This document shows positions 18,158-58,758 of a stretch of DNA of 64,000 nt, piece by piece. Origin of the DNA: Porphyrobacter sp. ULC335 (lineage in GTDB: Bacteria; Pseudomonadota; Alphaproteobacteria; Sphingomonadales; Sphingomonadaceae). The position numbers and the translations under genes are program-made. Under the pieces are notes generated by a model. That model was given only the letters and a program-made list of their open reading frames with translations, was not told the origin of the DNA and ran no database searches. The DNA lies in NCBI RefSeq assembly GCF_025917005.1, contig NZ_CP078091.1:1116001-1180000 (forward strand), in the 5' to 3' direction. The stretch's first letter is position 1. Every line of letters starts with the position of its first letter.

Positions 18158-18201
18158 GGTTAGACCCCGTCTAGACGCCCCTTAGACCCCTTCCAGCCCT
18201 G
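18158..18201 (-). repeat. Four 11-bp G-rich repeats beside parS, copy A
   Basis: Read on the minus strand away from parS, units of exactly 11 bp begin at 18201, 18190, 18179 and 18168: CAGGGCTGGAA, GGGGTCTAAGG, GGCGTCTAGAC, GGGGTCTAACC. The consensus with the other two copies is GGGGTCTAGnn. The first unit starts 12 bp from the end of parS. It lies in the 120-bp gap between plsC and the convergent hisC-tyrA gene. Confidence 0.85.
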
Positions 18202-18213
18202 CGCTGTAGCGTC

Positions 18214-18229
18214 TGTTCCACGTGAAACA
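18214..18229 (-). promoter_or_regulatory. parS: parS-like ParB-binding site A
   Basis: TGTTCCACGTGAAACA on the plus strand matches the bacterial parS consensus TGTTTCACGTGAAACA at 15 of 16 bases. On the strand that leads into the G-rich repeats it reads TGTTTCACGTGGAACA, identical to site B. It is intergenic, just outside the stop codon of hisC-tyrA. Confidence 0.85.
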
Positions 18230-36377: not shown

Positions 36378-36393
36378 TGTTTCACGTGGAACA
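36378..36393 (+). promoter_or_regulatory. parS: parS-like ParB-binding site B
   Basis: TGTTTCACGTGGAACA, 15 of 16 bases of the parS consensus, with the single change in the half nearest the G-rich repeats. Intergenic, eight bases past the P450 stop codon. Confidence 0.87.
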
Positions 36394-36405
36394 CGCGTTC
36401 TGGCG

Positions 36406-36491
36406 GGGGCCTAAGCGGGGTCTAGAGGGGGTCTAGCAGGGGTCTAAGCGCGGCTGGGCGGGGTCTGGATCCGTTTGCGCCGGGTCTGGAA
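36406..36491 (+). repeat. Phased 11-bp G-rich repeats beside parS, copy B
   Basis: Units start at 36406, 36417, 36428 and 36439 at exactly 11-bp steps: GGGGCCTAAGC, GGGGTCTAGAG, GGGGTCTAGCA, GGGGTCTAAGC. A degenerate 10-bp unit and further GGGTCTGGA copies follow at 36460 and 36481. The first unit begins 12 bp after parS, as in the other copies. The array runs up to the stop codon of the small DUF1674 gene. Confidence 0.87.
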
Positions 36492-55573: not shown

Positions 55574-58120
55574 TTACGCCTCGACCAGCAGCCGCTCGAT
55601 CTCGGTCATGCCATAGGGTTTGCGCAGCACCGCTTCCGCGCCCATCCGCTCGAACCCGCCCGCCGCTTCGGCGTAGCCCGTGGCCAGCACGAAGCGCACG
55701 CCCGCTGCACGCAGGGCATCGGCAATCGGTTCGGAGGATTCGCCGCCGAGATTGAAGTCGATGATCGCGAATTCCCAGTGGCTCTCGGCAATCGCGGCGA
55801 GCGCGCCGGTGACCGAACTTTCCAGCCGCACCTCGGCCACGCCAAGGCGTTTCAGGTTCTCTTCGGTGTCGAGCGCGATGATGATGCTGTCCTCCACCAC
55901 CAGCACCCGCGCCGGATGGGCGCCCGATGGGCTGGCCGGATCGCGCAGCGGCTCGCGCGGGCGCGGGGGGATGCTGCTTGCGCCCGCTTCGGGGAGAGCG
56001 AGATAGCGCGCCGGCACGAGGAAATCGGCCTCCACCCCCGTCAGCTTGTAGCGCACGTCCGCCTCGCCCTGAAGGTCGTGGGGGATCGAGCGGGTGATGA
56101 TCGTCGATCCGAAGCCGTGGCGGGTCGGCGCGGTGACCGGCGGGCCGCCCGCCTCGCGCCAGCGCAGCGCAAGATCGCCGAAAGCGGTGCGCGCAAGGCT
56201 CACCTCGATGGTTCCGGCGCGGGCCGAAAGGCTGCCATATTTGGCGCTGTTGGTGGCAAGTTCGTGCACCACCAACGCAAGGATGGTGTAGGCCTCGGGC
56301 GTGACCAGCACATCATCGCCGCTCAGCCGGAAGCGCGCGCGCTCCGCGCCGCCATAGGGGGCGAGTTCCGCTGCGATCAGCTGGGCGAGGCTTGCCGGGC
56401 CCCAGTTCTTGGCGGTGATATTGTCATGCGCCGCCGCCAGTGCGGCAATTCGCCCGCCGATGATCGCGGCAAAGCCGGGAACGCTCAGCGCCTCGGCCTG
56501 CGATTGCGATACCAGCGCGCGGATCAGCCCGAGGATATTGCGCACCCGGTGGTTGAGCTCGGCGATCAGCAGGTCCTGCTGTTCGGCCGCGCGGGCACGT
56601 TCGCGGGTCAGATCCTCGCTCATGCGCAGGATCACCTCGATCAGCGTGCGGCGCAGGCGCGCGGCGATCTCGCATTCGTCGGCGCTCCATTCGGCACTGT
56701 GGCCGCGCACGGTCTCCTGCCACGCTGCAAAGCTGGCGCGCGGCTGGAGCAGTTCGCCCGGCGCTGCGGCCGCCTTCGCCGGATCGCCTGCCCAGGTGAT
56801 GACCCGTTCCAGCGGACGGCGCCACAGCACCAGCGCATCGCGGGTACCGCGCGACAGGGGCAGCACCAGAGCGCCCGCCGCACGTTGGGTGAAACAGGCG
56901 GCATCTTTGATCTGGTCGGCCAGCCGCGTGGTCGAATGGGTCGCCCCGCCCAGCGTGCTGGCGAGCAGCGGCGCGATGGCGCGGAACTCCGCCTCTGCGG
57001 GCGCATCGCCGCTGGCGCGGTATTCGCCATCGGCGAAGAGCGATATGCCGTCATGCTGGATCGTGCCGTGCAGCAGCTCCTCGATCATCGGCAGACTGTC
57101 CGCCAGGGTCACACCCCCGGCGAGGCGCAGCAGCAGCCGGTCGTTCAACTGCCGCGCCCGTTCGCGCAAGGCTTCGGCCTGCGCCACCAGAATGCGATCA
57201 AGCATCAGCGAGAAGGTCTGGCTGAGCAGTTCGGCCACGGTGCGCAGCGAGTAGGGCGGCAGGCGGGCTTCGCGGTGGTGGCAGGAGATCATCCCCCACA
57301 GCCGGTCGTGCCGCACGATCGCAATCGCCAGCGACGCGCCCACGCCCATGTTGCGCATATAGGCGAGGTGCATCTTCGAGTGCGAACGCAGCATCGACAT
57401 CGACAGGTCGAGCGGGGTGTCCTCCGGCCCGGTGGCAGGGATGATCGGCACGGCGTCCGAATCCATGTCGGCGATGATGCGGAAGCGGTTGCGGCGGAAC
57501 AGTTCGCGGGCCTGTTGCGGGATATCGGCGGCGGGGTAGCGCAGGCCCTTGAACGGTTCGAGAGCCTCGTCGCGGTCTTCAGCGATCACCTCCCCGCTGT
57601 CGTCCGGGTGGAAGCGGTAGATCATCACCCGGTCATAGCCGGTCATCTGCCGCACCAACCGCGCGGCCGTGTCGCACAGTGCGGTGACGGTTCCGGCCCG
57701 TTCGAGCTGGGCGACGACCGGAACGATCATGCTGACATGATCGGCAAAATCATTGCGGGCGTGGGGTTCGAACTCGATCACAGAGAGCCCGCAACTGATA
57801 TGCACCGCGCAGTCGAACAGTTGACCTTTGCCTGTCAAATCAACGCCAAAGCGGCGTTCCAGCGTGTCGATACCGGCAAGGTTGGCGAGCGCGTTGGTGA
57901 GGGTCTCAAATGCGCCGGGCGCGATGATGTCCGCTAACGGCGTTCCGGTCGCGGGGAGGTTTTCCAGCCCGAGAAATTCGGCGACATTGGCCGAGATGTG
58001 CGCCACCCGGCCGTGCTGGTCCGCCGCGATCAATCCGCCGAAGTCCTGCACGGCAGCGATATGGTGGATCGCCTCGCGGTCGCATTCGGTGAGCGTGTCG
58101 TTGCGCTGGTGGAGGTTCAT
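55574..58120 (-). CDS. bphP: Bacteriophytochrome histidine kinase with fused receiver
   Basis: An 848-residue red/far-red photoreceptor started at ATG 58120, overlapping the bphO stop codon (ATGA). The chromophore-binding Cys is Cys13 in LTECDREAIHHIAAVQDFG; the PAS domain spans 15-125 and the GAF domain 140-310 with DIP at 199-201 and His251 in KMHLAYMRNMG. The PHY domain (320-495) has the tongue motif PRASFAAWQE at 460-469. The kinase is of the HWE/HisKA_2 class with phospho-His524 in ELNHRVRNILGLIRAL. A receiver (about 725-845, VLVVEDSIIIALDTEENL; Asp in IIDFNLGGES) closes the protein. Biliverdin comes from the upstream bphO gene. Confidence 0.94.
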   Translation of the reverse strand: MNLHQRNDTLTECDREAIHHIAAVQDFGGLIAADQHGRVAHISANVAEFLGLENLPATGTPLADIIAPGAFETLTNALANLAGIDTLERRFGVDLTGKGQLFDCAVHISCGLSVIEFEPHARNDFADHVSMIVPVVAQLERAGTVTALCDTAARLVRQMTGYDRVMIYRFHPDDSGEVIAEDRDEALEPFKGLRYPAADIPQQARELFRRNRFRIIADMDSDAVPIIPATGPEDTPLDLSMSMLRSHSKMHLAYMRNMGVGASLAIAIVRHDRLWGMISCHHREARLPPYSLRTVAELLSQTFSLMLDRILVAQAEALRERARQLNDRLLLRLAGGVTLADSLPMIEELLHGTIQHDGISLFADGEYRASGDAPAEAEFRAIAPLLASTLGGATHSTTRLADQIKDAACFTQRAAGALVLPLSRGTRDALVLWRRPLERVITWAGDPAKAAAAPGELLQPRASFAAWQETVRGHSAEWSADECEIAARLRRTLIEVILRMSEDLTRERARAAEQQDLLIAELNHRVRNILGLIRALVSQSQAEALSVPGFAAIIGGRIAALAAAHDNITAKNWGPASLAQLIAAELAPYGGAERARFRLSGDDVLVTPEAYTILALVVHELATNSAKYGSLSARAGTIEVSLARTAFGDLALRWREAGGPPVTAPTRHGFGSTIITRSIPHDLQGEADVRYKLTGVEADFLVPARYLALPEAGASSIPPRPREPLRDPASPSGAHPARVLVVEDSIIIALDTEENLKRLGVAEVRLESSVTGALAAIAESHWEFAIIDFNLGGESSEPIADALRAAGVRFVLATGYAEAAGGFERMGAEAVLRKPYGMTEIERLLVEA

Positions 58121-58758
58121 GCGGGCAGATTTTCCGCAGCACTTCCAGCCACTTCGCCATGTTCCGCGATGGCAAGGAAATGGGCGAAAACGGCCTCTGC
58201 CGCGCGGGTTGCGCCTTCTGCCTCCTCCGGCGCGGCGGGACGTTCGATCCGGGCGCGCAGGCCTTGCCAGAACGCCATCATCATATCGTCGCCAAGGAAG
58301 GCGACCGGCCATTCGCCGCCGCCGATCCGCGCCACCTGCTTGGCAATCGCCTTGTTGCCGAGCGCCGATCCGGCCAGCACCCATGCCGCCCCCACACAGG
58401 CATGTTTCACGTGAAACGCCCCTGCCGACGGGGGTTTGGACAGGGTCTGGAGGGGGTCAAAGGGGGGGCTGGAGGGGGGCAAGGCCACACCAAGCGCCGC
58501 CAGATCGCGGGCAAGCAGCGGGGTCTGCGCTGGCGGGACGAGATCGGCAGGCGCATTGGCTAGCAGCCATGCTTCCAGTGGCACACGCGCGGCGTGTTGC
58601 AGCGCGAGGAAGCGGGCATAATCGGCGCGGGTCTGCCATCCGCTGGCGGCCTGCATTGCGTGATCGAGCAGATCATGCGCGGCCATCGTCGCAGCCCGCA
58701 GGCCTGCGCGCAGGCTTTCGCCCGGCTCTACCTTTGCCATGTCCCTGACCGGCGCCAT
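58117..58758 (-). CDS. bphO: Biliverdin-producing heme oxygenase
   Basis: A 213-residue protein started at ATG 58758 (GGAAGGA upstream); ATG 58740 and a frame open to 58818 are alternatives. SLRAGLRAATMAAHDLLDHAM contains the likely heme-ligand His, and LQHAARVPLEAWLL and GAAWVLAGSALGNKAIAKQVAR match the core helices; the Gly-rich distal helix is replaced by the AGSALG form. It opens heme to biliverdin for the phytochrome it is coupled to. Residues about 95-120 (PPSSPPFDPLQTLSKPPSAGAFHVKHA) are the translated parS element and G-rich repeats, an insert-like loop just before a conserved helix. Confidence 0.88.
   Translation of the reverse strand: MAPVRDMAKVEPGESLRAGLRAATMAAHDLLDHAMQAASGWQTRADYARFLALQHAARVPLEAWLLANAPADLVPPAQTPLLARDLAALGVALPPSSPPFDPLQTLSKPPSAGAFHVKHACVGAAWVLAGSALGNKAIAKQVARIGGGEWPVAFLGDDMMMAFWQGLRARIERPAAPEEAEGATRAAEAVFAHFLAIAEHGEVAGSAAENLPA
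58403..58418 (+). promoter_or_regulatory. parS: parS-like ParB-binding site C, inside bphO
   Basis: TGTTTCACGTGAAACG, 15 of 16 bases of parS, lying within the bphO coding sequence, where it encodes the residues around FHVKH on the opposite strand. Confidence 0.83.
58431..58480 (+). repeat. Phased 11-bp G-rich repeats beside parS, copy C
   Basis: Units begin at 58431, 58442, 58453, 58464 and 58475 at exactly 11-bp steps: GGGGTTTGGAC, AGGGTCTGGAG, GGGGTCAAAGG, GGGGGCTGGAG, then a partial unit. The array starts 12 bp after parS, as in copies A and B, although here it is constrained by the bphO reading frame. Confidence 0.83.

Follow-up and report, generated by a model that had tools for sequence, protein, structure and literature searches.

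The parS-like palindrome and the phased 11-bp array found inside the putative heme oxygenase gene bphO of Porphyrobacter sp. ULC335 form one of about 60 modules dispersed over the host chromosome (a single contig of 3.62 Mb). These are probably ParB-loading modules, in which the palindrome would be recognised by the chromosomal ParB and the array by a reader different from the ParB HTH. The prediction comes from sequence comparison within the genus. The features of the window, that is, of the whole 64-kb stretch of DNA that was analysed, are listed in Table 1; the module in bphO is referred to as copy C.

Table 1. Features discussed in the text, with positions in the window
Feature	Positions	Strand	Description
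bphO	58117..58758	-	putative heme oxygenase gene; hosts copy C; assigned from a Pfam match below cut-off and from the operon
bphP	55574..58120	-	bacteriophytochrome histidine kinase; PAS_2, GAF, PHY, HWE_HK; overlaps the end of bphO
Copy C, palindrome	58403..58418	.	parS-like, TGTTTCACGTGAAACG; encodes FHVKH on the - strand
Copy C, first 11-bp block	58419..58429	+	CCCCTGCCGAC; between palindrome and array; codes for a loop segment of low conservation
Copy C, array	58430..58484	+	five 11-bp units in the register of the palindrome: GGGGGTTTGGA CAGGGTCTGGA GGGGGTCAAAG GGGGGGCTGGA GGGGGGCAAGG
Sibling module A	18158..18229	-	palindrome 18214-18229, array to its left; convergent intergenic gap
Sibling module B	36378..36470	+	palindrome 36378-36393, array to its right; convergent gap (crude gene call)

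The module within bphO

The ORF harbouring copy C likely encodes the heme oxygenase BphO. The assignment follows from its operon with bphP (the end of bphO and the start of bphP overlap by 4 bp) and from a match of the product to the Pfam family Heme_oxygenase (PF01126) at 17.5 bits, under the cut-off of 23. A PDB sequence search with the product gave no match, and the AlphaFold model built from the single sequence (pLDDT 42) was excluded from the evidence.

The palindrome of copy C differs from TGTTTCACGTGAAACA by one mismatch. Scanning the window with up to three mismatches yielded six matches, corresponding to three sites read on both strands, against 0.55 expected from shuffled sequences. 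Tandem Repeats Finder independently reported a repeat of period 11 with 4.5 copies at 58430-58478. The only known structured RNAs found by Rfam in the 64-kb window are two tRNAs. The palindrome and array inside the ORF confirm the initial annotation, which had placed a parS site with a repeat tail inside this gene. Two details of it have to be adjusted: the gap of 12 bp is 11 or 12 depending on the chosen start of the first unit, and the module end at 58480 made the last unit 4 bp too short. Copy C lies about 600 kb away from parB, that is, outside the ori domain. This location is unusual, as clusters of parS are normally found around the replication origin, and the sites have otherwise been described mainly in the ori domain (PMC7022226).

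Six of the 30 closest bphO homologues (G000, G085, G017, G083, G016 and G081) contain the palindrome, with zero to two mismatches, at the same codon position, 32 bases ahead of the AWVLAG codons. The other 24 contain neither the palindrome nor the FHV[K/E]H loop, and a wider scan including more distant bphO homologues found no palindrome outside the carriers. As had been proposed, the FHV[K/E]H peptide is missing where the site is missing, the loop of such homologues being mostly shorter, and none of the homologues examined has this peptide without the palindrome.

The second proposal, that synonymous positions vary less in the module than in other parts of the gene and DNA-level selection prevails over selection on the protein, is also supported in the six carriers. 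The module has a lower amino-acid identity than the remainder of the gene (0.67 vs 0.75), whereas codon identity at positions with the same amino acid is higher (0.81 vs 0.60). When columns matched by amino acid were drawn from the rest of bphO, the mean was 0.66 (sd 0.044), and none of the 20,000 draws reached the value of the module, 0.82. The test is to be read as strong but not exact, since the six sequences are related, the columns depend on one another, and the borders of the module were chosen once the alignment had been seen. The 11-bp register, whose persistence had been taken as a further sign of selection on DNA, is indeed retained in all six carriers, although coding DNA would purge frameshifting indels anyway.

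One could suppose instead that selection at the protein level keeps the FHV[KE]H loop and that the DNA pattern merely follows from it. In favour of this, the loop is read in frame, and its FHV is invariant across the six carriers. However, the third positions of the F, H and V codons are identical in all pairs as well, and the replacement of K by E in two carriers coincides with the C/T choice between two parS alleles; both this and the combination of less conserved amino acids with more conserved codons speak against such selection, and we consider this explanation highly improbable. The conclusion that the module in bphO is kept by selection on DNA, with the protein apparently tolerating the loop, is well supported by the codon comparison.

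The bphO homologue of G064 has a partial loop and five units in register with the palindrome absent, and thus palindrome and array seem to be separable. This single case is suggestive, as a loose unit count also reaches four in two module-less homologues, but it speaks against the proposal that such modules move or arise as one unit. The bphO tree is too weak on a single gain of the module in the six carriers, as one clade is not rejected (p-AU 0.55).

Modules around the chromosome and among relatives

Genome-wide, 62 palindromes were found at up to two mismatches vs six for the reversed pattern, and 126 array matches vs one for the control. The array unit is GGGGTCTARNN, and the array occupies only one side of the palindrome in 38 of 39 modules. 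Distances from the palindrome to the first GGGGTCTR cluster near 11, 22, 33 and 44 bp. Among modules chosen for having two or more GGGGTCTR units in a stretch of 100 bp, a selection in which the register played no part, the Rayleigh R at period 11 is 0.85 in this genome (37 modules) and 0.88 in named relatives (56 modules). With the first gap alone, periods of 10.5 and 11.5 fit nearly as well; with all units, period 11 is the best.

The two parts of the module do not always occur together. About 15 arrays have no recognisable palindrome in the scan used, and six palindromes clustered near parB and mnmG (the latter identified by eye) carry no array. The palindromes of this genome are often degenerate (centres CACGCG, CATGTG, CCCGTG), and thus some of them may function weakly or not at all. 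Near position 1302943 of G000 (L040) lies an array that has no palindrome and is perhaps in coding DNA, as judged by eye; it has counterparts at the corresponding place in two relatives (L137 and L148). A different repeat, around CTGAGCTTGTCGAAGG, was seen beside parS in L003 (palindrome at position 445681 of G000) and also in L274.

Nineteen of 37 modules lie in convergent gaps, 15 in co-directional and two in divergent ones, and one lies within a gene; the bphO copy, which is below the unit threshold of this list, is a second in-gene case. With the in-gene module omitted, convergent gaps are in excess (19/36 vs 19% expected, p ~7e-6) and divergent gaps are avoided (2/36 vs 44% expected, p ~6e-7), these p-values being rough, as our own gene caller is crude and unvalidated and the baseline is the base-pair shares of one 64-kb window. 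If parB is taken as the origin and, by assumption, the point opposite it as the terminus, the sites are distributed evenly between the two (KS p 0.48), and the terminus is not depleted. Their spacing is somewhat more regular than random (CV 0.74 vs 0.98, p 0.007). Module orientation relative to replication has no bias (18 with, 21 against).

Comparison of the module loci by blastn with 78 loci of relatives gave alignments for 42 of this genome's loci. In most of these the relative, too, has a module or an array close to the matching position; a few alignments stopped short of the module. The loci of relatives had been preselected for containing arrays, and thus the comparison demonstrates shared old positions rather than a rate of gain and loss. 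These correspondences point to old, vertically inherited sites, contrary to the proposal that modules move as a unit. They also bear on the possibility that the module is a short mobile or REP-like repeat whose palindrome resembles parS by chance. Such a repeat would agree with the many copies and with their scarcity in divergent, promoter-bearing gaps, but the copies share the motif only, and the palindrome change in the relative G022, described below, takes in most of the cluster adjacent to parB. A REP/MITE-type or other mobile element was rejected on the shared positions of modules in related species, and the chance that the module is of this kind is very small.

Within the genus, 47 of 114 genomes contain 9-86 parS sites at up to one mismatch and the other 67 contain 0-4; several patterns were used in the scans of genus and order, and the thresholds (one to three mismatches, at least nine sites) were picked while viewing the data, but, with a gap between four and nine sites per genome, the split into dispersed and origin-only genomes hardly depends on where the cut is placed. 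In other genera of the order, no genome out of 276 has more than eight parS. GGGGTCTAR arrays are present in 33 genomes of the genus, some with one match only; among named relatives, arrays occur for example in Erythrobacter dokdonensis, E. sanguineus and Porphyrobacter sp. AAP60. By these scans, the dispersed candidate modules belong to a clade within one Erythrobacteraceae genus. In the tree of 28 ParB proteins, the 18 from dispersed-parS genomes are on one side of a branch with support 100/100. The length of this branch is 0.69 in ParB (0.12 on the other side of the midpoint) vs 0.11 and 0.0085 in ParA; only part of the excess is special to this branch, as ParB end branches are also about three times longer than those of ParA. 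Both groups were sampled by hand, not at random, when genomes were selected for comparing ParB, ParA and arrays.

Different units with the same period occur elsewhere in the genus: in G025, G035, G046 and G082 the DNA beside dispersed palindromes has 11-bp autocorrelation (z 3.7 to 4.8 at lag 11). No clear 11-bp autocorrelation was seen in G028, G076 and G086, which also have dispersed parS. Loci of G035, G046 and G082 (L193-L202, L264-L274, L288, L294, L300, L306-L313) have period 11 with units GGCAAAGC, GCAACG and GCRACSA. Tandem parS sites 36-39 bp apart were noticed near parB (G025:C34:255508-255562, G086:C1:1232464-1232515, G082:C245:5587-5679). In 36 of 234 flanks the pentamer GAACA is found at an offset of precisely +6 from the palindrome, vs 0-2 flanks at the other 59 offsets, some palindromes being counted more than once because of overlap of the fetched loci. 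This position is one helical turn from the palindrome half-site, and it is occupied in the flanks of dispersed parS of several species.

Candidate readers of the palindrome and the array

Genome G022 has arrays but few standard parS. Instead, it contains 56 palindromes of the form TGTTNCACGTGNAACA, and all but four of those listed are TGTTCCACGTGGAACA (chromosome C1; L219-L233). Eight palindromes lie at 418-423 kb, near parB (424 kb), seven of them TGTTCCACGTGGAACA-type and one TGTTTCACGTGGAACA. The G022 ParB, alone among the 28 full-length ParB sequences, has the substitutions R219K, A220T, M215F and M195H. By a constant offset of 15, inferred from motif positions and not from a structural alignment, R219 aligns with R204 of Caulobacter ParB, listed among the residues that contact parS and are conserved in both ParB and Noc (PMC7383237). 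As one genome shows the change, this co-change is suggestive rather than a repeated pattern. Since palindromes both near and far from parB have changed, the dispersed palindromes are likely to share their reader with the parB cluster. Recognition of the palindrome by the chromosomal ParB is a prediction that sequence supports well, if indirectly.

The array unit behaves differently. It is unchanged in G022 although the palindrome has changed, and thus a single helix of ParB does not seem to be the plain reader of both. Conversely, in G035, G046 and G082 the unit has changed while the palindrome has not. These independent changes are difficult to reconcile with the possibility that the units are weak ParB half-sites and ParB alone binds every helical turn outward from the palindrome. 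Half-parS binding is known in Pseudomonas aeruginosa (PMC10419367), the 36 flanks with GAACA could be seen as having a third half-site one exact turn past the palindrome, and the unit fits the half-site best at the observed register, the top of 11 rotations, albeit weakly (four of nine positions). On balance, we regard binding by ParB alone as unlikely.

Another possibility is that the array serves gyrase, HU or SMC as a phased bend or as a place of wrapping, and is not a site for a sequence-specific protein. The 11-bp period with one pyrimidine-purine step per turn, the retention of the period in species with different units, and the preference of modules for convergent gaps, which is where positive supercoils gather, all agree with this. 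However, the conservation of GGGGTCTAR exceeds what shape alone should need, and a pure bending site seems somewhat unlikely.

In the preferred reading, the palindrome would be the loading point for ParB, and the array a one-sided, same-face ladder phased with it. We infer that this ladder is read by something besides the ParB HTH, as palindrome and unit change independently in G022 and in G035, G046 and G082. Some other protein could be the reader, or the array could act as a phased bend, and ParB clamps that have been loaded at the palindrome would be held or blocked there; clamp locking, DNA bending and recruitment of a partner are the possible modes of action. Less surely, the modules may spread ParB over the whole nucleoid, in the service either of nucleoid organisation or, via the ParB partner MipZ, of a Noc-like veto on division over DNA. 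MipZ was found in all 27 genomes tried, with or without dispersed parS, and thus it does not separate the two groups and its presence alone is no argument; given that it is present, nucleoid-wide ParB could extend division control over the DNA. A bolder and quite tentative suggestion is that ParB doubles as the origin centromere factor and a Noc-like nucleoid-wide factor with no duplication of ParB, the arrays recruiting a clamp-locking partner.

Relation to known systems and significance

Noc/NBS sites are depleted at the terminus. The terminus is not depleted here, and the sequence is that of parS, not NBS. What is shared is the presence of dozens of ParB-family sites scattered round the chromosome, as described for Noc in Bacillus, a protein with a membrane-binding N-terminal amphipathic helix (PMC4331003). 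A second ParB or Noc paralogue was considered and rejected, as the genome has one HTH_ParB match, and this sole protein scores 196 bits with the Noc model, whose cut-off is 315.

With chromosomal ParABS systems the modules have in common the palindrome, the single chromosomal ParB beside ParA and the cluster near parB. The difference is in about 60 further sites, evenly spread from origin to terminus, most of them with a one-sided 11-bp array. The half-parS sites of P. aeruginosa likewise provide many extra ParB targets across the genome (PMC10419367), whereas here the sites are mostly whole palindromes with phased arrays and positions shared between species. No description of dispersed parS or of the array sequence was found in the open-access papers searched.

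In Bacillus, chromosome folding is affected by how many SMC loading sites there are and by where they lie (PMC8357415). With dozens of natural parS sites at an even spread, ParB/SMC traffic in the absence of a single loading zone would become testable in these bacteria, at least one of whose parS sites appears to be kept within a gene at the cost of the protein sequence.
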